Source: an uncultured Clostridia bacterium (lineage in GTDB: Bacteria > Bacillota > Clostridia > Oscillospirales > Ruminococcaceae). Taken from it: a DNA stretch of 40,331 nucleotides. This document shows positions 1,976-17,068 of this stretch, in pieces. Position 1 is the stretch's first letter. Every line of letters begins with the position of its first letter. Position numbers and translations under genes: made by a program. The stretch is from assembly GCA_947631575.1 (NCBI GenBank), contig CANRLW010000010.1, positions 1 through 40,331 of the forward strand. The letters are read 5' to 3'. The notes under the pieces were generated by a model that saw nothing but the letters and a program-made list of their open reading frames with translations, had not been told where the DNA came from and ran no database searches.

Positions 1976-2188
1976 ATGTTGAAAACGCCTGAATTGGCAA
2001 TGCCGAGATCACGCAAGGTCACTACCGTCTGCAACGGCAAACGTGAGGTCTGGACGGACTATGAGGAAGCAAAGGCTTATTTCCTTGAAATAATGATGTC
2101 TACGGACGGTGAGGAGCATGACCGAGCAGAATGCGTTTACATTCAGCTACTTCATGGGCTTGACGAGTGCAGTGATGAGGACGAATAA
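1976..2188 (+). CDS. Small conserved-looking protein of the mobile element, unknown function
   Basis: A 70-residue protein starting at ATG 1976. This start is chosen over the in-frame TTG at 1961 because GGAGG lies at 1963-1967, eight bases before the ATG. The N-terminus is basic (MPRSRKVTTVCNGKREV), the rest acidic (ends CSDEDE), with a DYEEAKAYFLEIM helix in the middle. I do not recognise a domain. It has its own promoter-like sequence, a good ribosome site and a following hairpin, and sits between the two 29-nt repeats. Small acidic proteins like this are common beside relaxases in Firmicutes mobilisable elements, but no function can be assigned from the sequence. Confidence 0.7.
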   Translation: MLKTPELAMPRSRKVTTVCNGKREVWTDYEEAKAYFLEIMMSTDGEEHDRAECVYIQLLHGLDECSDEDE

Positions 2189-2190
2189 TC

Positions 2191-2225
2191 AGCAGGGCGA
2201 GTTGTTTCGGCAGCTCGCCCTTGCT
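2191..2225 (+). terminator. Stem-loop after the 70-aa gene
   Basis: GGGCGAG (2195-2201) pairs perfectly with CTCGCCC (2214-2220), with flanking AGCA/TGCT able to extend the stem past one bulge. It begins three bases after the stop codon. The T-tract is poor, so termination would be weak. Confidence 0.5.
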
Positions 2226-2236
2226 ATGTCCTGCGA

Positions 2237-2265
2237 CGAACGGAAATGCCACTTACAGCCGTCCG
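2237..2265. repeat. 29-nt stem-loop motif, copy 2
   Basis: Same 29-nt architecture as at 1738-1766: CGAACGGAAATGCC, 8 variable bases, CCGTCCG. The arms are conserved while the loop differs, which suggests the fold or the arms matter. Confidence 0.7.
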
Positions 2266-2289
2266 AGACTGCGAAGCGGAAAACTAACC

Positions 2290-2341
2290 GACCAAAAAGA
2301 AAAGCCCTGAGAAATGCTTGTGTGAGCAAATCTCAGGACTT
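2290..2341 (-). terminator. Rho-independent terminator of the defence operon
   Basis: CCTGAGA (2306-2312) and TCTCAGG (2331-2337) form the outer stem, and TGCT (2315-2318) with AGCA (2325-2328) form an inner stem. Read on the minus strand, the hairpin is followed by CTTTTCTTTTTGG, a proper T-tract. It lies about 125 bases beyond the helicase stop, so it most likely ends the minus-strand operon. The 123-base gap to 2464 holds a 12-bp palindrome (TGGCGTGCGCCA) and no gene that I can see. Confidence 0.65.
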
Positions 2342-2464
2342 ATTCTGTTATTCACTTCCAAATTGGTACGATGTTATTGTGGCGTGCGCCATAATGATTT
2401 AATAGAATTGTACGAAACGGATTATAGAAGCGCTAATAGCCTATGGCCTGTGAAATACACATAA

Positions 2465-5400
2465 TTATAGTTGTTCACGAATTATGGCATCAGCTTTTGG
2501 TAATGCATATTTCAGTAATTTGTCGGATACAGTAATAACATTGGAAGGTATTTCGCTATAATGTTTGCTCCACATCGCAGGCAAAACAAATATTCTGTGT
2601 GATTTACCGTTTTCTATCAAGTAGTGCTGCTGCTCATGAGATTCAATCCTATAATCTGAACCAAGAGCATTTAAAGGCAATAGCAATTTTTCTTGATCTT
2701 CATAGGATAAAGGTGCAGGCAGGACAGAACATTGACACCAATCTAATAATTGTAATGCTGCGAACCTATCCAGATTGCTTTGTACTCTCTGATTCCAAAA
2801 ATGCATCATACATTCATGGCAAGCACTATCACATTTTGCTGGGCATTCGCTCAGTACCTTCCTGATTTCAGACATTAATTCCTCAGTACGATCAGCTAAT
2901 GTAGAGCAGTAACCTGCACCGCTTGACAGACTGTCAAATAAGAAAATATCAACGAAGGCTTTTTCCTGTACATTATCGTAACGTAAGCGATAACCACTTC
3001 GTATTTCATTGAATTCGATATCCAAGAGGCGGCCGCCTGCAAGTGTCATTGCTTCTGCCATAGTCTGACCTGCTCTGTGAATCCATAGCTCCTTTGGATC
3101 AACATTAATTTTATCATATGGTAAAGCTATCTCGTAGACAACCATGTCTGTTCTGAATTGACTTCCTAAATAAGTATTGGTTATTTGTGAAGCAGAATGG
3201 CGGCAATCAAACTTGTTATGCGGATGCACGAAAGGCTTTAGCAATTTAGAAAGCGGAACGGAATCATCACCCGGGACAGCAGCTCCACATTCCTTGCATA
3301 CCATGAAGCCTTTTGATTTAGGTCCTTTGTTCACGATGATAAGCGGATCATCGTCACGCTTTGAATACCTGAGATTATCATATGATTCAACATCTATCAT
3401 TTCATCTTCTGAAGGTGTTATTGAATAACTTGGGTTCTCAGCATAGGAAATATCAGCATCATCATCGTTTTCGCTTTGTTTTCTACCATTGACCGGAGCA
3501 AATCCCCAAGGTTTCAATACAAACTTCTGTTGAATATTGTCTTTTCCGCAGAATGGGCAATTCTTTACTGGTGATAGCCCCATCCAGTTACATGACTGCT
3601 CCTCACAGATATAAAGTGACCTGTAATAGTCCGTACTCGAAAAATAAGGCCGAGCAGGATGCTCTTGCTCTCCTGGTTTAAATTTCGAGTGAAAACTATA
3701 AATACCACCTGATTTATATACGTCTTTATTTATGACAATTATTCTACCCGGAGCGTATTCACTAATCGCCATGTCCAAAGAACGGTCAGGCTTTTGAACA
3801 ATTTTCTTTCCCTGATTATCTTCAACATAAAATCCGATTACGTCCTTCGGGAACGAATATGTCGGGAAAATACCTTCTTCCAAGAGCGTATCGAGAACTG
3901 TTTTTGATGAATCACCACTTTCTTTATAGTTTTCAGGAAAACTCTCAACTTTGTGCTTCAAGGTATCCATTTCCGCTAAGAATTTATTCTTGTATTGATT
4001 AAAATCAAAGTCAACACCGTCTGGAATCAGTGCGGTCATGTCAAAATCCTTAGCTTGTTTACTGATTACATAATTTGAGAATTGAGAATACCATTGTGTA
4101 AAGAATTTATCTATCTCTTGCTGATCAGCACCGCTGTAAATGCTATCAAAGAATTCAGTGATTAACATAACATTAAAATGTCTTGAAACCAACTTTGAAT
4201 TATGAATGTCTATCCACGGTGTACGAGGTTCTCCTGAAATAATTTCTTCAGGATTATGGAAGTAATAACTATCATGTGGACGATTATCCGCAAAAGTAAC
4301 AATAGTTGATATTGCAGCGCTTTTACGACCTGCACGACCTGCTCTCTGCTGATAATTCTCTCTCATGGGAGGAATATTTCTTAAACCAACAGCAGTAAGA
4401 GAACCAATATCAATACCGACTTCCATCGTTGTTGTACAGCTAAGAATGTCAACAGGACGATCATTGTTTACATGAACATTCTGGAAACGCATTTCATAAT
4501 CTTCAGTTGTAGACCAAGTATTATCTCTTTGATCCTTATGCGATAATTGTGCAGTATGCTCCTCAGTGTTAATACGAGTCATAAGAGCTTGCGGATCTCC
4601 TTCGACGGCTTTAAGGACGGGAGAACGCCAAAAATCAATGCCCTTGAAATCGTCCGTGTTCATTAAATGTGGCTCACCTTTACCGCAATGTGCGCATTTT
4701 CCCCATACCGTGTACGGGAATACTCCGCTGCAACGAGGACATTTATACCACTCATGTTCGGCATCGTAATGTAATGAAACTACTTCCATATTCAAGTAAT
4801 ATGATGAAGTATGATCGCTCTTAGCAAGGAATCTGCTGAGTTGCTCGGCGATTATACTGATCTGTTCCTTTGAATACCCATGTTCTGTCAATAATGATCT
4901 GATTCTTGTGGGGAGTTCCGTTTCATTTTCAACACCTAATCTTTGCCGATATGCAGTTAAGTTTCGGCGTGTAGAATCTGGAATATCAGAGCCTATGGCA
5001 TATTCAGAAGTCATTATTTCCATTGCCCAAGCAGCAAAAAGAACTTTAAACTCATCCAATGTCATTAAAATATCAGCATCATCAAAGGCTTCTTCTATGT
5101 CATCAAATGTGTCTCCATCAATATCACATGGTTCAATCCAACACAGTCCGGCATCGGTAAGCGAACGGAAATTACTGCAAAGCTGGCGGAGTAAGTGTTC
5201 ATTAAACTGATCTGGTTTATGTTTAAAATCTTTTAACGCCATTTTATCGTATCTTAGAGAATCGCCTTTCTTTTCGTATCGCTTTTTCATTGTATCTAAA
5301 TCGTTAAGCAGATCCTCTTCATTATTTCCATAAAAGAATCTTAACCCATTCTGGTATGCCACCTTCAAAAAGAATGTATACAGCAAAGACAAAGTAGGCT

Positions 5401-7696
5401 CTTCATCTTTTGATGCTGCCCATTCCTGAAGTTCTTTCGCAGCAACTGTGAGAGCTTTCTTCATGGCATCTTCATCAGCAGCCCTTGTCAAATCTCTTGC
5501 AAGAACGGCGGCTCTTTGTCTGCTATCAGAGAAGAGAAGCACCTTTCGTCCTTGATTGACAAGATCAGCGTACTTTGGAACAGGCGGCTGAACATAGAAC
5601 TGCTCAGATACAATATTGAAAAACGGTTCGTTGCCTTTGGTTATAAAATCTGTAGCATTAAATCTGTTCTTTTCACATTTAGGGCAGCTTTTGAATGTTA
5701 AGGTATCAGGACGACCTTTCGACTCCGCAGTACAGTAAGCAATATGAAGAAATCCATTTTCTCCAGTATGATCATTGAAACAATCAATTCTTCCAGCGAG
5801 TGCATTAAGCCACCCAACAACCATATCTTTTTTCTTTTTGAATGATCCGTCATTTGGAATTATGTAAAAAAGCACTTCCTTCAGATTCTCTGTAAACTGA
5901 ATTCCCGGTTCATTCCATATAAAAGGATTCGAGCCTTCTGAAATGTCCATGTATCCACGAAGGAACAATGCACCGCAAGAACGTTCATTCAGCAGTTCGT
6001 ATATCATACCTCCACAATCACATCTTGTCCCGGGTTTATTTAAGTATACTCTGCCCAGTCCTAAACTGCCGTCATGATTTTTATGTTTACACATAGGGTT
6101 TGAACAAGCATAGATACCTTGTAAACCACGAAACATCATGTGTAATCTCGCAGGGTATAACACTTGATTGTTAGCATTTTTAGCAAGTGGAGCAATTGCA
6201 AGAAAGGCACTCGTAGCTTTTTGAGCGGTTTCTGCTTCTTCGCTCGGAAACGCTTTTAGTGCAAGCTGATTAAAGCTCATTGCATTTCCTCTTGTTGCTT
6301 GCATGATCCTACGCATAGGATTTGTATTGAAAAGGCATTTGTACAGCCATACTTCAACAGATTTCTCATCGTCAAGGTCGCAATCCATGTCGAATTTTAA
6401 TCTTCTTGCAAAATCAGCAATAGCTTCTTTTTTGGTATCCCAGTCACCTTGTAAAGCATCAATGTCAAAATCTAATAGATCCCGAGCATTTATCTCCGAA
6501 GCAGTAAATTCTATTGGCTCTTCTTTTCCACGAATTATCTTGAAGTTGTTGACTTTCTCATTTTGTGCGCTAAGTTCGCAGGCAAACTTATAAATTGGTG
6601 TATCATCAGACGGAACGCTGGCACTTGTCAGGATAAATTGTACACGGTCACGTCCAATACCGAGTTTATGAAGCACTCTGCGAATAAGTAAAGCTACTTC
6701 GCCACCGGCAGAACCTCTATACATATGCGCTTCATCAATAATGAATAATAGCTTATTATCATCTGAACTATCAAGCCAATTACGAGTCGATTGCCAAATC
6801 GATTTTTCGATTGGACGCATAAGCATATATTCGAGCATTGAATAGTTCGTAATAAGAATATCAGGACAGAACATTTGCATTTCATGGCGGGTAACAAGTT
6901 CTGCATCATTCGGATCAGTCAGTACGGCTCCTTGTTCTTCCAGTCTATCTGCAAAGCTTTCAAGATCAGCTTTAGAAGGATACTTACCCAAATCTCTCAG
7001 TTTATTCTGTACCTCTTCTGACTGATTAAGTATATCTCTCCGAATTGTTTCGGCATACTTCACATTTTCATCGTAATTATTCTCGCCAGGATACGGAGTT
7101 CGTCCAGTATACATTCCAAACTGCGGAACACGGGAACCTGGAGCAAGCTTGTGAATTATATCATGGAAGCCATTTTTACCGTTACCAATCATTTTTCTAA
7201 GACGCCCCATCTGATCGGATACAAGTGCATTCATAGGATAAAGCATTATAGTACGAATACCTCTGATTTTCCATGAGTCAGGCGAATTGATCTGTTCCAT
7301 TAACAGCTTTGTAGCTAATGGCCACATAAAGCATTCCGTCTTACCTGAACCTGTTCCTGTGGATACAAACAAATCCTTTCCTCGATAGTAATTCTCTAAT
7401 GATTCTATCTGATGCAGATAAGGATTTGCAAATACACCAAGATTTCTGTTTATCATTTCTTGAAGAATCCGCTTTACATCATCGGGAAGATCAGCTTTAC
7501 TTATCCCGTCAGGTATCGACAAATAGGCATGGTTAGCTTCGATATAAGGTTCTTGATACAATAGCCCTGTTTCCTCTAACTCTGAAAGACACGCAGAACG
7601 CAGGGCGTCATTTTTTCCAAGATATACTGTACTGATATAGTTTATTAGTTTATTTTTCAACGCTTCATGCGTACTTTTAACTCCGTATTTATCCAT
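2465..7696 (-). CDS. druE: Giant DEAH helicase with DUF1998/MZB C-terminus, DruE-like defence helicase
   Basis: A 1743-residue superfamily 2 helicase, probably the ATP-driven effector of a Druantia-type anti-phage system. Visible motifs: a Q-like FANPYLHQ (about 89-96), Walker A GTGSGKTE (114-121), DEAH near residue 320 (IIDEAHMYRG), and a second RecA domain with MEVGIDIG (about 1092) and QRAGRAGR (about 1119). Zinc-knuckle pairs CPRC..CAHC (about 985-1004), C..C..CPFC (about 1355-1382) and CKEC follow. The C-terminal cluster CPAKCDSACHEC (about 1612-1625) is typical of DUF1998/MZB helicases such as MrfA and DruE. It is the last gene of the operon; its ATG overlaps the preceding stop by 8 bases and has GGAGG upstream. 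The helicase call is certain. The DruE assignment rests on size, architecture and neighbours; DISARM DrmA/DrmB is less likely because DUF1998 is fused here and no phospholipase-D gene is present. Confidence 0.9.
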   Translation of the reverse strand: MDKYGVKSTHEALKNKLINYISTVYLGKNDALRSACLSELEETGLLYQEPYIEANHAYLSIPDGISKADLPDDVKRILQEMINRNLGVFANPYLHQIESLENYYRGKDLFVSTGTGSGKTECFMWPLATKLLMEQINSPDSWKIRGIRTIMLYPMNALVSDQMGRLRKMIGNGKNGFHDIIHKLAPGSRVPQFGMYTGRTPYPGENNYDENVKYAETIRRDILNQSEEVQNKLRDLGKYPSKADLESFADRLEEQGAVLTDPNDAELVTRHEMQMFCPDILITNYSMLEYMLMRPIEKSIWQSTRNWLDSSDDNKLLFIIDEAHMYRGSAGGEVALLIRRVLHKLGIGRDRVQFILTSASVPSDDTPIYKFACELSAQNEKVNNFKIIRGKEEPIEFTASEINARDLLDFDIDALQGDWDTKKEAIADFARRLKFDMDCDLDDEKSVEVWLYKCLFNTNPMRRIMQATRGNAMSFNQLALKAFPSEEAETAQKATSAFLAIAPLAKNANNQVLYPARLHMMFRGLQGIYACSNPMCKHKNHDGSLGLGRVYLNKPGTRCDCGGMIYELLNERSCGALFLRGYMDISEGSNPFIWNEPGIQFTENLKEVLFYIIPNDGSFKKKKDMVVGWLNALAGRIDCFNDHTGENGFLHIAYCTAESKGRPDTLTFKSCPKCEKNRFNATDFITKGNEPFFNIVSEQFYVQPPVPKYADLVNQGRKVLLFSDSRQRAAVLARDLTRAADEDAMKKALTVAAKELQEWAASKDEEPTLSLLYTFFLKVAYQNGLRFFYGNNEEDLLNDLDTMKKRYEKKGDSLRYDKMALKDFKHKPDQFNEHLLRQLCSNFRSLTDAGLCWIEPCDIDGDTFDDIEEAFDDADILMTLDEFKVLFAAWAMEIMTSEYAIGSDIPDSTRRNLTAYRQRLGVENETELPTRIRSLLTEHGYSKEQISIIAEQLSRFLAKSDHTSSYYLNMEVVSLHYDAEHEWYKCPRCSGVFPYTVWGKCAHCGKGEPHLMNTDDFKGIDFWRSPVLKAVEGDPQALMTRINTEEHTAQLSHKDQRDNTWSTTEDYEMRFQNVHVNNDRPVDILSCTTTMEVGIDIGSLTAVGLRNIPPMRENYQQRAGRAGRKSAAISTIVTFADNRPHDSYYFHNPEEIISGEPRTPWIDIHNSKLVSRHFNVMLITEFFDSIYSGADQQEIDKFFTQWYSQFSNYVISKQAKDFDMTALIPDGVDFDFNQYKNKFLAEMDTLKHKVESFPENYKESGDSSKTVLDTLLEEGIFPTYSFPKDVIGFYVEDNQGKKIVQKPDRSLDMAISEYAPGRIIVINKDVYKSGGIYSFHSKFKPGEQEHPARPYFSSTDYYRSLYICEEQSCNWMGLSPVKNCPFCGKDNIQQKFVLKPWGFAPVNGRKQSENDDDADISYAENPSYSITPSEDEMIDVESYDNLRYSKRDDDPLIIVNKGPKSKGFMVCKECGAAVPGDDSVPLSKLLKPFVHPHNKFDCRHSASQITNTYLGSQFRTDMVVYEIALPYDKINVDPKELWIHRAGQTMAEAMTLAGGRLLDIEFNEIRSGYRLRYDNVQEKAFVDIFLFDSLSSGAGYCSTLADRTEELMSEIRKVLSECPAKCDSACHECMMHFWNQRVQSNLDRFAALQLLDWCQCSVLPAPLSYEDQEKLLLPLNALGSDYRIESHEQQHYLIENGKSHRIFVLPAMWSKHYSEIPSNVITVSDKLLKYALPKADAIIREQL

Positions 7697-8702
7697 GTTT
7701 TTCCTCCGCTATTCGTATGCCTAATGCTTCAAAATACGGTTTGATGTAATCCCAAATGAAACCGTACATTGTCCAACAAAGCATATCGTTTATTCGATTA
7801 AATGGCCAAGCATAGCTTTCAAGAATTATTCGTTCTTTCATTGGGAGATGTGTAGATAGTTTAAGATGAACATGATCGCTATAGCTCTTGACAATAGCAA
7901 CAGCACTATTATTTGCTTTTTTTCTTAATGCAAGCATTATTCTAATATTATACCCTTGCTCTTGTAAAAACGGATCTATTTTGTGCATTAATTTGCTCTT
8001 GGGCTTTAGTAAATAATACTCATGTCCATTTTTGTTTATCGTTAATCTGCCAAGGATAACCTCGTCGATAGCATTTGGGAGCGAACTATCCCAAGCTGTG
8101 TAGTTATTTTTCGACTTATGCGCTGGATTGAAATACATCAATTCATTCATTTCAGAGGGAATAGCTGTCCACCATACACTTTTAAGAAACCCTTTTAACC
8201 ATTCTTCGGGACTTTCACCCGTTTCTGATTGATTTGTAAAATCATTCTTGCGAAGTGCCGATATTCCCGAGTATATGATGTTTTCGCCTAAGACTTCGCC
8301 GTATATTGTATCATAACCTGAAACATACTGCTTTTTATGTACGATAGAAAGAGCCAGGTTAGTATCAAAACCCTCGTTCAATAAATCACCATGATTTAAC
8401 AATCTGTTTCTTATTATTACGACAGGGTTTTCATCGCTATCTTCAGTGCTAAACCATGGTGCTGTCTCAGGATTCATTTTAATAAGCGATTCTAAAACAG
8501 CATTACCACGTTCATATATGTGTCTCCGGCTTACACCTGAAAGATGATTTTCTTTACTACCGATTGGCTGATCCATTGCAATAGCTTTCAGCCAGCTTGA
8601 CATTGCTGAATATATTACCCTACACTTAAATGATGTTGTATCTTCACCATCATAACTTGTGATGCCAAGGTCAGCAGCCATTTTGTCTATAATCGAATTC
8701 AT
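7689..8702 (-). CDS. Unknown defence-operon protein (337 aa)
   Basis: A 337-residue protein I do not recognise. It has no obvious membrane segment, signal peptide, nucleotide-binding motif or nuclease triad. The sequence is globular and mixed alpha/beta, with a tryptophan-rich stretch EEWLKGFLKSVWWTAIP (about 165-181) and a C-terminal aromatic patch (MLCWTMYGFIWDYIKPYF). The ATG at 8702 has an AAGGGA-type ribosome site. It lies 21 bases after the 914-aa gene and overlaps the helicase start by 8 bases, so it is almost certainly co-expressed and stoichiometrically linked with the helicase. Canonical Druantia type II, as I recall it, has no separate gene at this position, so it may be an accessory subunit or a split-off helicase partner. 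Confidence 0.8.
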   Translation of the reverse strand: MNSIIDKMAADLGITSYDGEDTTSFKCRVIYSAMSSWLKAIAMDQPIGSKENHLSGVSRRHIYERGNAVLESLIKMNPETAPWFSTEDSDENPVVIIRNRLLNHGDLLNEGFDTNLALSIVHKKQYVSGYDTIYGEVLGENIIYSGISALRKNDFTNQSETGESPEEWLKGFLKSVWWTAIPSEMNELMYFNPAHKSKNNYTAWDSSLPNAIDEVILGRLTINKNGHEYYLLKPKSKLMHKIDPFLQEQGYNIRIMLALRKKANNSAVAIVKSYSDHVHLKLSTHLPMKERIILESYAWPFNRINDMLCWTMYGFIWDYIKPYFEALGIRIAEEKHG

Positions 8703-8723
8703 ATTATGTTATCCCTTAATAAA

Positions 8724-11468
8724 TCAGTCAAATAATTCTTCACAACTTCCTATTCCGTTTTCCTGGAGCAATTCCTTCAAACGTTCAGGATTTCCTGTTG
8801 AACGAGCTGTAGCTATTAGTTGTGTAAGTATCAGATTACTATCATCTAACGAGGCATTATATATTGCTAAGTATCTTGAATACATACCGATTTGCGTATT
8901 ACTCAATATATCTGTAAACAACTTCATTGATTTCCTGGCATCCTTATATTCCTTTGATTTCATATCTATAGTTCTATCATGAAGATCAAGGCTGTCAAGA
9001 ACGGTAAATGTGTGCAGTAAATCAACAGTCTTTTTCTCAAAACCTCTATCACCGTCAATATAAATCGAACGATTCCATACACCGGGCATTATCATTTTTG
9101 ACTGAGTGCCCTCTATTGATAAAAGTATAATAGCGTTGTCCCAATTTTGCATAATATTAGAAAGTGCGTTAAAAAGATTGATAGAATAACCATCAAAAAC
9201 ACCGTGAACAAGACATACCATAGGCGATGCTTTGCTCACGTTATCGTTGATAACGGCAGACAATTCCTCAATGCTGATTCCCTGAACGGGTACAAACACC
9301 TCAGACACATTACCGCCATTAAGAACAGCAGCCAAACACTGAGCTATAAGTTTAGCATTTTCGCTTATCACCAATGGAACTTTCTCAAAAACGCCAAAGC
9401 TGATAGCTTGTGATATTTCAATTGACTGTTCGTTGTCATAACCGATCCGTGTCAGGTTTTCACTCAATTCATCTTCAAATGTATCAACATCATCGATTTC
9501 TCCGTCTTCGACGCAATCAATATGTGAATTAAAAACTGATAATTGATTTGAAAGCTGATTTCCGTTTGAAGTAACAGCAGAATAGAGTGGAGATACAAAT
9601 GCCATATTACTGATAAAATCAGCAACATTTTGTTTTGCCTTTTCTATTTGCGTGGAAATTTTTGTTTCAACATCTGATGCAAGTTGTTCTCTTTGACTGA
9701 GTGCTGATTGTAGTTGCTCCATTTCATCGGCTAACTTATCTCTCTCAACTGCTAATTGTTTTATTTCATTCTGGTTCCTTTCAACTACACTTAATACCTC
9801 ATTGAGTTTTGATTCAGCCTCAGCAAGTTGTTTTTCATTTTCAGCTTTCCACTCATCTGTCAACTGCTGCTTACATAAATCAAGTAGTTCAGCATTTCCT
9901 TGTATAGCTCGGGAAATGATAGTTGTGTCAATATCGGAAGCAGATAAGTATTGGTCAGCTAAACTGATAAAGCCATCGATGTATTCTTGTGCTGTTTCGT
10001 TTGAACAATTGTAGGCAAGTGTCAGTTCTTGAATAATATCCTTAGTGGGAATAGCCGTCAAATAGTTCCTACAATGCTGAACTTCTTTTTTTGATAGCCC
10101 ATATTCACGAAGATTAGCATTAGTGAACCGGGAAATGATAAGAGATTTAACTGCTTCATAAGGATCCCGAACCTGATAAATAGACTGTGGTATCCCGAGT
10201 GATAAAAACTTATAGATTCTGATACTAGCAAGGTCGATGGTATCAGATAGCTTAATGCTATACTGTGGAAGCGTATAAACATCGGATTTAAGGGTGATTT
10301 TATCATTAGCACGGTCAAAATCAGAAGATGAGCATAGTAAGCCGGTTAAGATAGTGTTTTCTTCATAAACAAACAGCAGCTTATTAAAAGAAAATTGAAA
10401 CGATATTCCGTTTTTTAACAAAGAAACTACATCATCAAGTGTTTCACAATTTAACAACTGAATTATCTGCGTAAGTTGAATATTATTACAGAAGTCGGTT
10501 TCTACATAGTCTTTGTTAGGATCGGTGTCTCTGGGAGTTACATTCCAATTCCAAACGCCTATAGCTTGATCAGTGTCAGGTCCGTTTCGCCAATATAAGC
10601 GGTCTCTATTAGAAAAATAATGTGGAATTGTTTCATCAGCAACAAATGGCACAATCTCTCCGCTCTCTGTAATATCGGCAAGTCTAAATATCCATCGCTG
10701 ATCATTGTAGTCATATAAGATCTGACCAATTGAAACGTACTGATAATTTGAAACAAAAGGCTGAGACACTTCATTACCTGCATACCTTTTCAGAGCTTGA
10801 TAATGCTCAAGCTCGTGTTTCATATCAGATATGGTCGATTCAGCGATACGAAGTTTGTCAGTCGTATCACTTAACAAGCGTTGATTTTTCTGTAACTGCT
10901 CATTTACGCCATCAAGTTCATGTTTTAATGCGTCCCCATGTTCCTTCTCTTCAGTCAATTTTTTACTGATTGTCTGAATTTCGGAATTAAGCCTTTCGAT
11001 TTCCGAGCTTTCAAGTTCGACATTATGCTCTTCCAATGCAATATCAGATGTTTTCTTTACAAGAGATAATGCATCATTAAGTAATCTCAGATAATCGTCT
11101 GTATATGCTTGTTCCGTCAGCTTAAAGTACAATTCTATCCTATCGCAGAAAACGCATTCAGGAATAGTTTTTAGCAAAGCTTCTCCGGCGGTAAAGCCTT
11201 CATGTTCAAGTGAGTCACGATGTTCTTTAATCTCCGATAACCATTGTTTAACAGCGCCCTGTATCACAGATTGAATAAAGGGTTTATTAGCGTATTTTAT
11301 AAGAAATGAAAGCGTTTCATCGTCCGTCATCTTTTTTACAGTAAATCCCGGCCTGAGTTTGTTAAACTCTTTAGGATTCTTCTGGAAATAATACCTTACA
11401 GCCGGAAGATGCATACGTTCACAGATATATTTGATTTCGTCGTTTGATAATTCGGAAATATTATACAT
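8724..11468 (-). CDS. Large coiled-coil protein with NTPase-like C-terminus, DruG-like position
   Basis: A 914-residue protein, probably a structural or sensor subunit of the defence complex. Two long coiled coils are readable from heptad-like E/K/L/Q runs: about residues 145-228 and 536-618. Between them is a globular region (about 235-530) rich in aromatic and beta-type sequence. The C-terminal part (about 680-800) has the rhythm of an AAA-type core (PLVISENAKLIAQCLAAVLNG, then MVCLVHGVF, then AIILLSIEG), but I see no Walker A lysine or acidic Walker B, so it looks catalytically degenerate. The ATG at 11468 has GAGAGGAAA upstream; there are 22 bases after the 535-aa gene and 21 before the 337-aa gene. 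By position it corresponds to DruG of Druantia type II, which is inference; no homology search was possible. Confidence 0.8.
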   Translation of the reverse strand: MYNISELSNDEIKYICERMHLPAVRYYFQKNPKEFNKLRPGFTVKKMTDDETLSFLIKYANKPFIQSVIQGAVKQWLSEIKEHRDSLEHEGFTAGEALLKTIPECVFCDRIELYFKLTEQAYTDDYLRLLNDALSLVKKTSDIALEEHNVELESSEIERLNSEIQTISKKLTEEKEHGDALKHELDGVNEQLQKNQRLLSDTTDKLRIAESTISDMKHELEHYQALKRYAGNEVSQPFVSNYQYVSIGQILYDYNDQRWIFRLADITESGEIVPFVADETIPHYFSNRDRLYWRNGPDTDQAIGVWNWNVTPRDTDPNKDYVETDFCNNIQLTQIIQLLNCETLDDVVSLLKNGISFQFSFNKLLFVYEENTILTGLLCSSSDFDRANDKITLKSDVYTLPQYSIKLSDTIDLASIRIYKFLSLGIPQSIYQVRDPYEAVKSLIISRFTNANLREYGLSKKEVQHCRNYLTAIPTKDIIQELTLAYNCSNETAQEYIDGFISLADQYLSASDIDTTIISRAIQGNAELLDLCKQQLTDEWKAENEKQLAEAESKLNEVLSVVERNQNEIKQLAVERDKLADEMEQLQSALSQREQLASDVETKISTQIEKAKQNVADFISNMAFVSPLYSAVTSNGNQLSNQLSVFNSHIDCVEDGEIDDVDTFEDELSENLTRIGYDNEQSIEISQAISFGVFEKVPLVISENAKLIAQCLAAVLNGGNVSEVFVPVQGISIEELSAVINDNVSKASPMVCLVHGVFDGYSINLFNALSNIMQNWDNAIILLSIEGTQSKMIMPGVWNRSIYIDGDRGFEKKTVDLLHTFTVLDSLDLHDRTIDMKSKEYKDARKSMKLFTDILSNTQIGMYSRYLAIYNASLDDSNLILTQLIATARSTGNPERLKELLQENGIGSCEELFD

Positions 11469-11490
11469 ATGATTTCCTCTCTTCCATCTG

Positions 11491-13098
11491 TTATTTGTTG
11501 TTCGATATTCCGATTGATAAATCTAATAAACGTAATTGTCGAACTGTTTCAATATGAAGCATATTATTAACCATTGTTCCGACTATAGCCTGATAGATCT
11601 GTTCATATTGATTATTTCTAAGGTATTGCAGTAAATGATTAACCCATACAGGAATAGGTATCAGTTGACCTCTTGCAGACGCAATGATCGTTTGAGAAAG
11701 AATAGTTATATCTGTATCAAGTATTATATCATTATCAAATTTAATACAGTCATATACATTTGAGCCTATAATTAGAGATATTTCTGTAATTCCTTGGTTT
11801 TCGGTGATTGAAGTTTGTTGTTCTCTAACAGAGAAATGCTTGTAAACCATTTCGGAAGTACCTAAATATATATCAAATTTACTGTTTGATTTTAACAAAA
11901 AGCCTTTGGCAACTTCATTTTTTCTTATTTTACTTAATTCGTTTTCTTCTCCTGCGGAGTTAATATAGGAAAAGCTATATGAATAACCGCTTCGCTGAAG
12001 TGCCTTTGAAATAAAAGTCACTTCTCTTCCGACATATTTTCTGTCTACGGATAAAACAGTCGGAAACAAGCCAAGTGAAAGCTCAACTGTATGAATTCCC
12101 TTTGATATGGTTTTAACTTTTTCTCTATACACTGCATTACCAGAATAAGAATAAACATTCGGTTCATCATTACCACTCGATACTACGCAAACTACATTTG
12201 AATCACTTTTTACTGGAATCATGTAATCCTGCTGCACAACGGGCGGCCATACAGGAATCAGCTCTGGCGGACATTCTAACAGCCATACGCCAAAATTCGA
12301 CTTCATATATGAGCTTATAAGTGTAAAATCTCTTTTGCTATCAACAGACACATCGATTTGAAATTTGATTATTTTGAAGACGGTCTTATTGATTATGACC
12401 TTACCAATCGTGGTTTGGCTGATACTTGAATGATATAAAAAATCGTTTTTAACAACAGCATAGTAATATCTGTTTGTAGATATACTATCACCTCTACGAA
12501 CCTTTTTTCCACCTGTTTCACTATAAGAAAAGATAGCGCCGTTTGACTCAAAACCGTCTGCATAATCAGACCATTTTCTTTGCAAATCATAGAGTGGTGT
12601 TCTTCCCTCAATTGAAATTGAGTAGTTTCTTCCGTACAATGGAATGAAATCTATTGGTATAAGTGTGGTATTGTCCGACAAGAAATTTGATTGATTGACT
12701 TTGACGGTTCTATATTGCTGATATGAAGAAATTTTAACTGTACAATCGAATTTTGCTGCGTTATCTAATGTTTTACTGCCAAGAGCCGGAAAACCTATAC
12801 TAAGTTGAAAATTTTCTGAACCGATTTGTGTAATAAATAATGGTAAACCAACTCTTTGGCTTATTGTGAGTTCCGAGCGACCGTCAACACGCTTATCACA
12901 TTCAGGAGTACGAGATGTTTTCTCTTGGTGATAAAAATGACTTACATTATATTGACCGTTTCTAATATATACCAACTCGCCACATTCAGGACAGTAAAAT
13001 CTCTCCTTTCGAGCCGGAATGTATGATTGTCCCTCAAATTCACTGGCACTAACCTCTTTCTCCGTGCCAACTGCATATCTGTCTATTGCAAATCTCAT
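11491..13098 (-). CDS. Zinc-ribbon protein of defence operon, DruF-like position
   Basis: A 535-residue protein with a likely N-terminal zinc-binding module: CPEC (Cys36, Cys39), HFYH (His54, His57) and Cys67. This reads like the CoiA-type N-terminal ribbon seen on several DNA-processing proteins. The remaining about 460 residues are beta-rich with many short hydrophobic strands and no catalytic motif that I can name. No signal peptide or transmembrane segment is evident. The coding sequence is strongly AT-rich, more so than the two restriction-modification genes upstream. It starts 37 bases after the restriction gene and lies 22 bases before the 914-aa gene. Its place after the methylase and before the coiled-coil protein fits DruF of Druantia type II; that identity is inferred from order only. 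Confidence 0.8.
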   Translation of the reverse strand: MRFAIDRYAVGTEKEVSASEFEGQSYIPARKERFYCPECGELVYIRNGQYNVSHFYHQEKTSRTPECDKRVDGRSELTISQRVGLPLFITQIGSENFQLSIGFPALGSKTLDNAAKFDCTVKISSYQQYRTVKVNQSNFLSDNTTLIPIDFIPLYGRNYSISIEGRTPLYDLQRKWSDYADGFESNGAIFSYSETGGKKVRRGDSISTNRYYYAVVKNDFLYHSSISQTTIGKVIINKTVFKIIKFQIDVSVDSKRDFTLISSYMKSNFGVWLLECPPELIPVWPPVVQQDYMIPVKSDSNVVCVVSSGNDEPNVYSYSGNAVYREKVKTISKGIHTVELSLGLFPTVLSVDRKYVGREVTFISKALQRSGYSYSFSYINSAGEENELSKIRKNEVAKGFLLKSNSKFDIYLGTSEMVYKHFSVREQQTSITENQGITEISLIIGSNVYDCIKFDNDIILDTDITILSQTIIASARGQLIPIPVWVNHLLQYLRNNQYEQIYQAIVGTMVNNMLHIETVRQLRLLDLSIGISNNK

Positions 13099-13135
13099 TT
13101 TATCACCCCACTTTACAAAAAATTAAAAATCCAAA

Positions 13136-13951
13136 TTATTCTTCAATAAACCCCTTATAGCTCCCAAACCCCAGCATATACACCGCCATAGCCACGGCGA
13201 GGTTCTCATCATCAATGTTCTGCTTCTTAGCAAGAGTTTTCAGCTCGTCAATAACAGTATCGTGCGGAACGATAGAGCCTTCAAGCTCGTCCACAGCCTT
13301 CTGAATGATAAACGGCAGAACCATACACATCTGATAGAAAGCGTCCTCCTGACCTGTTACAAGGGCATAGAATTGGTCAAGGCTAACACGGCGGATCAGT
13401 TTATGACCGACTTTTTTCTTGTCAACGGTAGTCTCCCACTTGATATTCTGCGACCTCTGAGCGATCGCTTCAACAAGGAAACAAGCGCAGTCATCATCAT
13501 TAAGGAGCTGATTTTGCATCTTGATGAAGGTCTTTCCTGCCGATGCAGAGTTCATCGTGTTGTGCTTATTCTTCATCTCAACATAGACAGTATGCACTAC
13601 GCTGCCGTCGGGCAGGGCAATACCATCGGGATTCTCAAAGATAACGTCCCAGCCACCCTCTTTGCCGTTATCGGGAACACGGCACTTGTCGATATAGTTG
13701 AATATTCTCTGATGGAAATAGCCTATATCGTTGTTATTGGACTTATCACGCTGACGGAAGATCTCGTTGCTTACGATCTCCTCCCATGATGCCTGATAGA
13801 CGGTCTTATCAAAAATAAGCTTGATAGGGTCAATGATATTCTTGTTGAAACGCTTCAAGTCGAAGGATTCCAGCTTTTCACCGTACTTCTCAATGGTTTT
13901 CTTGACGTGCTTTGTAAAATCTTCTTCGCTGATGAAACTAAGTGTCCACAT
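13136..13951 (-). CDS. Eco47II-family type II restriction endonuclease
   Basis: A 271-residue restriction enzyme of the Eco47II family (known members cut GGNCC). A PD-(D/E)xK-like core is readable: GGWDVIFEN with Asp102, then VYVEMKNKHNTMN with Glu125 and Lys127. The preceding helical region contains HQRIFNYID. The length matches the family. Its ATG shares one base with the methylase stop (TAATG on the minus strand), so its translation is coupled to and follows that of the protecting methylase. Base composition is closer to the methylase than to the AT-rich genes downstream. The cleavage specificity is family inference; the sequence alone does not prove GGNCC. Confidence 0.85.
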   Translation of the reverse strand: MWTLSFISEEDFTKHVKKTIEKYGEKLESFDLKRFNKNIIDPIKLIFDKTVYQASWEEIVSNEIFRQRDKSNNNDIGYFHQRIFNYIDKCRVPDNGKEGGWDVIFENPDGIALPDGSVVHTVYVEMKNKHNTMNSASAGKTFIKMQNQLLNDDDCACFLVEAIAQRSQNIKWETTVDKKKVGHKLIRRVSLDQFYALVTGQEDAFYQMCMVLPFIIQKAVDELEGSIVPHDTVIDELKTLAKKQNIDDENLAVAMAVYMLGFGSYKGFIEE

Positions 13952-15174
13952 TATAATAATCCCTCCAACGCTATTTTTATCTGTTTTGCAATATCATAAG
14001 CAAGGTTTACGGGTACAGCATTACCAACCTGCTTGTACTGTGAGCCGATACTTCCGCAGAACTGCCACTCATCGGGAAAACTCTGGCAACGGGCATTTTC
14101 ACGGATAGTAAACGGGCGAGGCTCAAGGGGGTGACAACGATCTGTCTGCTTCTGGCTCGGAGAAGTCAGTACCGTGAGCGAAGGCTCATCAAGGCTGAGT
14201 CTGCGGAGAATACCAGTCCTTCCGCCCTCCATGTACCAACAGCTTTTCATATACTCCTTGGCAATATCTTCGGGAATATCTCGCCAATATCCGCCCGGAG
14301 GAACAAGCTCAAATATTTTACGCTTATACTCCGAATAGGGTGTACCCTCACTCTTCGGGCAGTCAAGCAGCACATCACGCAGAACTGGCTTATAATCGTG
14401 CGGTGTAGGGAAAGTGAACTTGATCTGATTTGTAAGATCGTTTCTGATACCGATAGTGATAAGTCGTTCACGCTTCTGGGCAACACCATAGTCCCACGCA
14501 TTCAGCACTTTTTTCTGAATGGTGTATCCTGTACTTTCAAAAATATCTGTAATGGTCTTGTATGTCCTGCCCTTATCGTGGGTCAGCAGACCACGGACAT
14601 TCTCAAAAAGAAACATCTTAGGCTGGAGCTGTTCCAAGAATTTCGCATAGTGATAGAACAGTGTTCCACGGGCATCTTCGAGACCGAGCCTTTTTCCTGC
14701 ATAGGAGAAGCTCTGACAAGGTGCGCCGCCCGAAAGCAGATCGAGTTCGCCCTGCTTCAAACCGAAGTATTCTTGCAGATCAAGGCAGGAGACGTTAGCA
14801 ATATCATCGTTGATGACACGCCATTCGGGTCTGTTTCTACGGAGCGTATCAGAAGCATCCTTGTCCACCTCTACAAGACCGAGCGTTTTGAATCCTGCTT
14901 TTTCCACACCGAGAGCAAGACCGCCTGCGCCTGCAAAAAGCTCAATGGTCGAGAATGTCCTTGCTTCTGTTTGTGTCGTAATATCCATAATATCACCGAT
15001 ATTGCAGTTCAGCACCATACATATCTTTTCAAGACTTTCAAGGGATACCGTTTCATTTTTCCCCATACGAGCCATAACATTGAAGCTGATACCCGATGCT
15101 TCTTTCAATTCGGTCTTATTCATTCCTTTGTCGATAAGTAATTTCCAGAGATTATTGTAGCTCACTGCCACCAT
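13951..15174 (-). CDS. C5 cytosine DNA methyltransferase with N-terminal HTH (M protein, DruM-like)
   Basis: A 407-residue DNA (cytosine-5) methyltransferase that protects host sites against the neighbouring enzyme and, in Druantia type II, would be the DruM component. Residues 1-66 form an XRE/Cro-type helix-turn-helix. Motif I is FAGAGGLALG (80-89), motif IV APCQSFS with catalytic Cys153, motif VI ENVRGL (191-196), motif VIII QKRERL (233-238), the target-recognition region lies about 270-350, and motif X is GNAVPVN (384-390). HTH-fused methylases of other type II systems repress their own operon, so autoregulation is likely here. The ATG at 15174 has AGGAAGG upstream. It is the first gene of the operon, with a near-consensus promoter and a palindrome in its leader. 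Confidence 0.93.
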   Translation of the reverse strand: MVAVSYNNLWKLLIDKGMNKTELKEASGISFNVMARMGKNETVSLESLEKICMVLNCNIGDIMDITTQTEARTFSTIELFAGAGGLALGVEKAGFKTLGLVEVDKDASDTLRRNRPEWRVINDDIANVSCLDLQEYFGLKQGELDLLSGGAPCQSFSYAGKRLGLEDARGTLFYHYAKFLEQLQPKMFLFENVRGLLTHDKGRTYKTITDIFESTGYTIQKKVLNAWDYGVAQKRERLITIGIRNDLTNQIKFTFPTPHDYKPVLRDVLLDCPKSEGTPYSEYKRKIFELVPPGGYWRDIPEDIAKEYMKSCWYMEGGRTGILRRLSLDEPSLTVLTSPSQKQTDRCHPLEPRPFTIRENARCQSFPDEWQFCGSIGSQYKQVGNAVPVNLAYDIAKQIKIALEGLL

Positions 15175-15188
15175 GTTTCATTCCTTCC

Positions 15189-15204
15189 TGTATCTTGTGA
15201 TACA
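15189..15204. promoter_or_regulatory. Palindromic operator candidate in the methylase leader
   Basis: TGTATC-TTGT-GATACA, a perfect 6+6 inverted repeat with a 4-base spacer, lies between the -10 box and the ribosome site of the methylase gene. A further TGTATCT half site is at 15250-15256, just upstream of the -35 box. It is a reasonable binding site for the HTH at the methylase N-terminus; this is inference from position and symmetry. Confidence 0.5.
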
Positions 15205-15220
15205 ATAATGGGTTATAAAA

Positions 15221-15249
15221 ATTATAGCACAATCCGTCGAAAAAGTCAA
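15221..15249 (-). promoter_or_regulatory. Promoter of the restriction/Druantia-like operon
   Basis: On the minus strand TTGACT (15249-15244), a 17-base spacer and TATAAT (15226-15221). One -35 mismatch and a perfect -10. Predicted start is near 15213, about 40 bases before the methylase ATG. Confidence 0.8.
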
Positions 15250-15293
15250 TGTATCTCACGAAAGTGTTAGATAATCTTTTGCACTACGTGCTT

Positions 15294-16810: not shown

Positions 16811-16910
16811 GTACAAATACTATTTTAGCATTTATAAAATCCTATTTATTTTCCTTTTCAAACACTATTATTCTAAATAACTTTTATGAACGTTTCCGGA
16901 GGCCGGAAAC

Positions 16911-16950
16911 AAGAGGTTAGAGTTTTAAACCCTAACCTCTTATTTCTTTT
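16911..16950 (+). terminator. Terminator of the SHOCT gene
   Basis: AAGAGGTTAG (16911-16920) pairs perfectly with CTAACCTCTT (16932-16941), followed by ATTTCTTTT. A related stem with AAGAGGTAAGAG arms occurs at 26349-26397. Confidence 0.7.
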
Positions 16951-17035
16951 ATAACAAACCATCTCCAATAAGGAAAACAACTTTTCCTCTTAAAACAAAT
17001 TCTAACCTCTAATCTCTTACCTCTAACCTCTAAAA

Positions 17036-17068
17036 GGGCAAGCTGCGGCTTGCCTTTGTGGTTTTCTG
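17036..17068 (+). terminator. Terminator-like hairpin upstream of mreB
   Basis: GGCAAGC (17037-17043), loop TGCG, GCTTGCC (17048-17054), then TTTGTGGTTTTC. It insulates the mre operon from upstream transcription. Confidence 0.6.

Follow-up and report, generated by a model that had tools for sequence, protein, structure and literature searches.

Type I Druantia is described as an operon running from druA to druE (PMC7251935), and a methylase counts, together with DruF and DruG, among the components of Druantia type II (PMC8565338). Both types have been placed in Type IV CoCoNuT, with an inactivated CnuB-like GTPase homologue, and the C-terminal Vsr nuclease of type I and type II DruE is said to be inactivated (PMC12458937). 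The locus analysed here lies in a stretch of 40,331 nucleotides from an uncultured clostridial bacterium of the Ruminococcaceae (contig CANRLW010000010.1 of assembly GCA_947631575.1; hereafter the window), which carries at 2465–15174 an operon of six minus-strand open reading frames (ORFs) encoding a methylase with a helix-turn-helix (HTH) domain, a restriction endonuclease (REase) and homologues of DruB, DruC, DruD and DruE. Sequence comparisons identify a recurrent type I core without DruA, headed by an exchangeable restriction-modification (RM) pair; no report of RM combined with DruBCDE was found in the portions of open-licence papers to which the literature searches were limited.

Gene content and assignment of the operon

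The ORF coordinates bear out an earlier note on this DNA, which had placed six codirectional genes at these positions with gaps of -8 to +37 bases; in gene order the gaps are -1, +37, +22, +21 and -8 bp, and a Shine-Dalgarno-like purine-rich stretch, recognised by eye, precedes the ATG of all six genes. The last gene (2465–7696, minus strand; 1743 amino acids, aa) encodes a YprA-family helicase with DEAD, Helicase_C and MZB (DUF1998) domains in Pfam and with the motifs GTGSGKTE, DEAH and QRAGRAGR; the PADLOC profile DruE1 matches its residues 1–1741 with 1885 bits, against 635 bits for DruE2. The 337-aa protein (7689–8702, minus strand) is matched over its full length by PADLOC DruD1 (3.8e-17), with no Pfam match above the cut-off. 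The 535-aa protein (11491–13098, minus strand) has a CoiA_N-type zinc ribbon at the N-terminus (Pfam, 2e-10), followed mostly by beta strands, and its single-sequence match to DruB1 is weak (0.013). For the 914-aa protein (8724–11468, minus strand), which contains coiled coils, Pfam gave weak coiled-coil-like matches only, and coiled-coil profiles of other systems scored equally to DruC1 (0.0013).

As the divergence of the 535- and 914-aa proteins defeats single-sequence profiles, alignments of relatives were compared profile to profile, with reference alignments from nine loci on the DruA side of the DruE tree, where locus L015 was verified by PADLOC as DruA-B-C-D-E. The hhalign comparisons matched the 535-aa family to canonical DruB (99.4%, E 2.6e-21, ~270 columns), the 914-aa family to canonical DruC (97.6%, E 3e-12, C-terminal 250 columns only) and the 337-aa family to canonical DruD (99.2%, E 2e-19). 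By these profile comparisons, the last four genes are the Druantia type I core DruB-C-D-E, in the gene order of type I; the window differs from type I in having no DruA and an RM pair at the head in its place. A search for DruA (PF14236), which recovered it in 2/2 positive controls, detected none in the window's own genome or in those of six RM-bearing relatives (0/7); the locus is therefore classed as a type I core lacking DruA rather than as a type I system.

The earlier note had called the operon Druantia type II-like and the 337-aa protein an extra unknown subunit. The type II label is ruled out by the DruE1-type helicase and by the DruF and DruG profiles of PADLOC, which gave no match to the 535-, 914- and 337-aa proteins at E up to 1; the supposed extra subunit is DruD by both PADLOC and hhalign, and the 535- and 914-aa proteins fit a different system from the one proposed, namely type I DruB and DruC. 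The remaining labels (HTH-C5 methylase, Eco47II nuclease, zinc ribbon and DEAH/DUF1998 helicase) stand. The window does resemble Druantia type II (DruM-F-G-E) in that one operon encodes both a DruE-family helicase and a C5 methylase, whereas its REase and its type 1 DruE set it apart; its methylase scores better with the profile of general type II methylases than with DruM2, which matches C5 methylases at large. With DISARM it shares a YprA-family helicase accompanied by a methylase, but here the helicase and DUF1998 form one DruE1-type protein; the DrmA and DrmB profiles match the helicase or DUF1998 parts only, weakly (DrmA 1.8e-11), and DrmC gave no match among the matches listed by PADLOC. 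The partial matches and the type of helicase rule out the DISARM label. Within Type IV CoCoNuT, DruC would be the candidate for the inactivated CnuB-like GTPase homologue.

AlphaFold 2 modelling of DruD gave a predicted local distance difference test score (pLDDT) of 92.5, and a Foldseek search of the model against the PDB found no match at E<=0.001; the modelled fold is possibly undescribed. The DruB model (pLDDT 88.8) had 13 Foldseek matches in the PDB at E<=0.001, mostly strings of Ig-like domains, but the matches are poor, with a query-normalised template modelling (TM) score of 0.11–0.19 and a root-mean-square deviation of >=19, so no fold is claimed for DruB, and for neither protein do the PDB comparisons point to a function.

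The first gene (13951–15174, minus strand) encodes a 407-aa C5 cytosine methylase (PF00145, 6.6e-84) with an N-terminal HTH (HTH_26, 8e-18) and with the motifs PCQ, ENV, QKRER and GNAV all present; its best PADLOC profile is MTase_II (1.3e-130), with DruM2 at 8e-85, all C5 methylases matching. The second (13136–13951, minus strand) encodes a 271-aa nuclease of the family RE_Eco47II (PF09553, 2.2e-89; PADLOC REase_II, 3e-28), containing GWDV and EMK, read by eye as PD-(D/E)xK. An Eco47II-type REase thus adjoins a C5 methylase, as defines an Eco47II-family type II RM system, and judging by the domains and motifs the operon head is a complete type II RM pair. It resembles other Eco47II-family type II systems (GGNCC) in the adjacency of methylase and REase and in the complete motifs; it differs in the N-terminal HTH of the methylase and in heading a six-gene operon. 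A phmmer search of the REase against PDB sequences gave a chance-level match only (0.47).

Small stand-alone HTH proteins, sharing 37–49% identity with the HTH at the N-terminus of the window methylase, are encoded shortly ahead of druB in L093 (5039–5233), L035, L037, L057, L062, L065 and L094, loci without an RM pair there. It looks as if, in the RM branch, the methylase had acquired the operon regulator by fusion.

Recurrence of the arrangement

Related loci were collected with a DruE alignment scan of a species-genome collection, from which the best 80 of 567 confirmed matches were taken, so that the counts describe near relatives; a scan of viral contigs with DruE gave 16 loci, and further scans of such contigs, with DruD and HamB, contributed nothing more. 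A further species of the genus (L010, identical to L019) has the same six genes in the same order, with proteins 78–97% identical and different flanks, which makes the arrangement more than chance.

An Eco47II-type pair lies directly 5' of druB, on the same strand, in the window and in L019, L020, L024, L026, L029, L072 and L099; the HTH and the methylase occupy separate frames in L026, and L029, at a contig edge, retains the REase only. L025, L028 and L100 have instead, directly 5' of druB, an EcoO109I-type nuclease (PF14511; 1e-63 in L025, 3e-63 in L100; L028 80% identical to L025), with methylases 35–36% identical to that of the window. Counting the window, 11 loci thus have an RM pair immediately ahead of druB, with a gap of -4 to +66 bp between REase and druB. 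L093 has a C5 methylase 180 bp behind druE and, ~430 bp beyond and on the opposite strand, a TdeIII-type nuclease (PF09520, 1e-44), which is adjacency and not an operon. The arrangement of RM and Dru genes is present in several families and in separate assemblies, one of them of an isolate, Butyrivibrio sp. INlla16 (L072); this recurrence in the surveyed loci supports the earlier note's placing of a restriction pair and a Druantia-family helicase in one operon and rules out a one-off insertion.

These nucleases are rare in the phylum: of 398 genomes searched, 2 (one being the window's own) gave a close Eco47II-type REase, 9 an EcoO109I family match and 3 a TdeIII match. The EcoO109I-type pairs of phylum genomes L163–L168 (blastp) and L243 and L244 (by eye) are not beside Dru genes, and phmmer found no solved relative of the L025 REase among PDB sequences at E 0.01. 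Further defence genes occur ahead of some RM-Dru operons, namely a PDC-S06 candidate 71 bp upstream in L099 (148–2409; 1e-185) and AbiJ in L020 (149–1048; 6e-80); behind druE, a PD-(D/E)XK protein is encoded in L012 (18549–19724; PF12705, 4e-16), with a related gene in L101 and L105.

The Eco47II-type pair also occurs without Dru genes. It is solo in L125, in the same order and 87/85% identical to the window pair, and in L131, beside a convergent Vsr-like gene. In L132 (7706–13006), a predicted viral contig, a pair 76/73% identical to that of the window lies 35 bp upstream of HamA-HamB of Hachiman (HamA 7e-110, HamB 5e-289); the RM cassette is the same as in the window and the helicase-nuclease core differs, one such locus having been seen. 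In L124 (778–3337) the pair runs into the beginning of a DolA homologue (4e-28) at the contig end, and in L126 (109–4485), from the same genus, a pair with a broken REase frame is flanked by a 242-aa gene and by what, judged by eye, is a relaxase-like gene.

DruE phylogeny and exchange of RM families

The DruE tree (FastTree, 90 rows, with a warning of long branches and uneven composition) was built from 104 loci, minus 15, plus the window; those left out were two duplicates (L010 = L019, L011 = L046), seven distant viral loci (L107–L111, L113, L114) and six loci with DruE under 1400 aa (L016, L078, L092, L098, L104, L112), of which L092 has a clade-like DruE (49%) and no RM. On the window's side of the tree 0/66 rows had DruA nearby, compared with 16/24 on the opposite side (blastp with three DruA references against the locus stretches). 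The RM-bearing rows all fall in one 15-row clade (12/15), nested in a 19-row clade (12/19); the contig ends before druB in L022 of the 15-row clade, which is therefore not judgeable, and L031 of the 19-row clade is cut too. A translated search of the locus stretches of the RM-free clade members found no Eco47II-, EcoO109I- or TdeIII-type nucleases, ruling out hidden or broken RM pairs there. L052, RM-free at its head, has a C5 methylase ~1.9 kb behind druE, with a recognition-region identity to the window methylase of 0.25, within the range of the controls described below.

The RM families of the 15-row clade (Eco47II 8, EcoO109I 3, TdeIII 1) are intermingled: the EcoO109I-type L100 groups among the Eco47II-type L020, L099, L019 and the window, and the EcoO109I-type L025 and L028 group with the Eco47II-type L026, L029 and L072. 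The starred branches of the tree imply at least two changes for EcoO109I and at least three for Eco47II. GGNCC has been assigned to an Eco47II homologue, with the methylated base given 'without certainty' and a methylation score near the cut-off (PMC10305163), and EcoO109I cleaves RG^GNCCY (PMC7337904). The target-recognition regions of 8/8 methylases partnering EcoO109I or TdeIII nucleases are 0.34–0.42 identical to that of the window, against a mean of 0.20 and a maximum of 0.32 for the same region in 52 control C5 methylases with equally close catalytic parts (mean 0.38); the controls came from 52/54 viral loci (L176–L229), their targets being unknown, and the region limits were set by the analyst. 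The target of TdeIII is presumably GGNCC as well. From the family and the recognition-region comparison we infer that the window pair cleaves and methylates GGNCC, and the different nucleases of the clade are predicted to have one target class. The tree and the alignments together indicate that the RM family was exchanged at least twice within the clade, the target-recognition regions staying alike.

Regulatory signals and genomic context

The earlier note had also given the operon one promoter and one terminator. A near-consensus sigma-70-like promoter, TTGACT-17-TATAAT with a TG before the -10 box (extended -10; 11/12 match), does lie at 15221–15249 on the minus strand, 47–75 bp ahead of the methylase gene, and recurs ahead of the methylase in L010 and L099, but a perfect 12/12 site ~200 bp further upstream (15496–15468, minus strand) makes a single promoter uncertain. 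No terminator-like site was recovered on the minus strand from 2000 to the druE stop at 2465. Overall, neither promoter-like matches (47 versus 41.3, sd 6.6) nor terminator-like matches (9 versus 8.7) exceed those in shuffled sequences.

Immediately upstream of the -35 box lies an operator-like imperfect inverted repeat (15254–15271, minus strand). By eye, the corresponding TCTAAC..TCGTGAGA-like element was recognised ahead of the methylase in L010, L099, L024, L125, L124 and L126, with variants in L131 and L020, and was not evident in L026, L072 and L132; most of the loci inspected retain it, be Dru genes present or not. The leader contains, by inspection, a perfect inverted repeat, TGTATC-N4-GATACA (15189–15204, minus strand), retained in L010 with an altered loop and absent from the other loci inspected.

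The stretch common to the window and L010 is 2148–15280. In the relatives G009 and G004 the chromosome corresponds to the window from mreB through an XRE gene to the equivalent of ~15382, where other genes follow (in G009, by eye, an acetate-kinase-like frame); neither has a Dru operon at the junction or a DruE match anywhere in its genome. With a MobA/VirD2-type relaxase gene at one end (49–1722; PF03432, 2.5e-33) and a junction with conserved chromosome on the mreB side (~15382), the operon resembles mobile-element cargo. An intergenic repeat ahead of mreB (window ~16910–17042) has many short matches in the window's own genome and in congeners.

Proposed function and alternative explanations

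The explanation given slightly better than an even chance is a co-transcribed two-layer antiphage operon, with RM acting early and DruBCDE late, the two perhaps meeting at DNA ends. The promoter of the RM cassette would drive all six genes; the methylase, made first, would mark the host and autoregulate through its HTH, and the nuclease would cut unmodified phage DNA at entry. DruBCDE would act later, on DNA surviving restriction, with DruE loading on single-stranded or processed ends, including restriction ends resected by host enzymes, and with DruB, DruC and DruD sensing phage or scaffolding the complex. The REase would furthermore supply the operon with an active nuclease, that of DruE being reported as inactivated in type I. 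In favour of this explanation are the operon anatomy, the type I core, the lack of DruA, the 11 loci with RM genes immediately ahead of druB, the frequency of GGNCC-type pairs in one DruE clade (12/15) set against the low phylum base rates of the three REase families, and the presence of the same cassette ahead of Hachiman. Type III DruE is described as unwinding 3'-tailed and forked DNA, and hardly 5'-overhang or blunt DNA (PMC13192584), and HamB of Hachiman as a DNA damage sensor (PMC12278908). Between the window and L010, the ratio of nonsynonymous to synonymous substitutions (dN/dS) is 0.16 for DruB, 0.15 for DruC and 0.11 for DruD, with DruE at 0.057 and the two RM genes at 0.019 each; DruB, DruC and DruD thus evolve fastest, as expected of subunits contacting phage factors.

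Several points weigh against the two-layer explanation. Hand-over from nuclease to helicase would need resection, because such GGNCC enzymes produce 5' overhangs, which type III DruE hardly unwinds. Related Dru cores occur without RM, and the RM pair, which also occurs solo or ahead of other genes, is not tied to Druantia. The Dru-linked methylases are not one clade (approximately unbiased test, AU, p 0.002), while for the REase tree one Dru-linked clade is not rejected (p 0.24). The synonymous divergence (dS) between the window and L010 is higher in the RM pair (1.63, 1.24) than in DruB, DruC and DruE (0.74–0.78), with DruD at 1.04, values above 1 being rough; despite this, the RM proteins are the best conserved between the two loci. 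On this evidence the RM cassette has its own history. The mixed methylase tree and the higher dS favour independent cassettes, where a promiscuous, self-stabilising RM pair lends defence operons its promoter and retention with no mechanistic coupling, as do the solo pairs (L125, L131), the pairs ahead of Hachiman, the DolA homologue and the 242-aa gene (L132, L124, L126) and the retention of the pair's own promoter and operator-like repeat whether or not Dru genes follow. By the logic of RM addiction, already methylated host DNA tolerates an incoming RM pair of the same specificity, so exchange only within one specificity would be expected of such cassettes. The concentration of the pair in one DruE clade (12/15), its position directly ahead of druB when linked and the low phylum base rates of these REases speak against the absence of coupling, which is judged rather unlikely.

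The idea of the earlier note, a self-mark shared by both layers so that GGNCC methylation would shield the host from the nuclease and from DruBCDE alike, must be called unlikely, although the three REase families of the clade share a predicted target class and their methylases have alike recognition regions. Also in its favour, a D12 N6-adenine methylase lies directly behind druE (gap -4 to +54) in 12/19 rows of a sister DruE clade (L013, L056–L059, L062, L063, L065, L070, L083, L088, L091; three by Pfam, the rest by tblastn), and a methylase is among the components of Druantia type II (PMC8565338). Against it, the same RM pair is found ahead of defence genes of unrelated systems, and the draft genomes of four of the seven RM-free loci of the 19-row clade (L021, L023, L030, L031) hold no C5 methylase at E 1e-10, so the DruBCDE core can exist without the mark; those of the other three (L022, L027, L052) hold one or more. 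In a 24-row DruE clade, likewise, a motif scan of the locus stretches, some short or cut, found no C5 or D12 methylase; genes with an NPPY motif at two of its loci may encode methylases of another kind. The shared mark is thereby weakened as a necessity. Chance insertion or an assembly artefact is exceedingly improbable: the window does belong to an 88-contig draft genome, but the arrangement recurs across families and in the Butyrivibrio isolate.

A more far-reaching proposal, doubtful but worth stating, is that this Druantia branch traded DruA for whole RM systems locked to one target class, with DruBCDE reading, or being fed by, GGNCC restriction. If so, any GGNCC RM family would be pluggable into the head slot, and the link between restriction and helicase would be a modular one in immunity, perhaps used by Hachiman as well.

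Biological significance

The absence of DruA near all 66 sampled DruE rows on the window's side of the tree suggests that searches requiring DruA under-call type I-like cores. If the operon is functional, restriction and helicase-based late defence would form one regulated unit in which RM systems of the same target are exchangeable. The RM pair standing in the place of DruA raises the question of the role of DruA, and the arrangement as a whole that of whether DruE-type helicases may tell phage from host by restriction products or by methyl marks.

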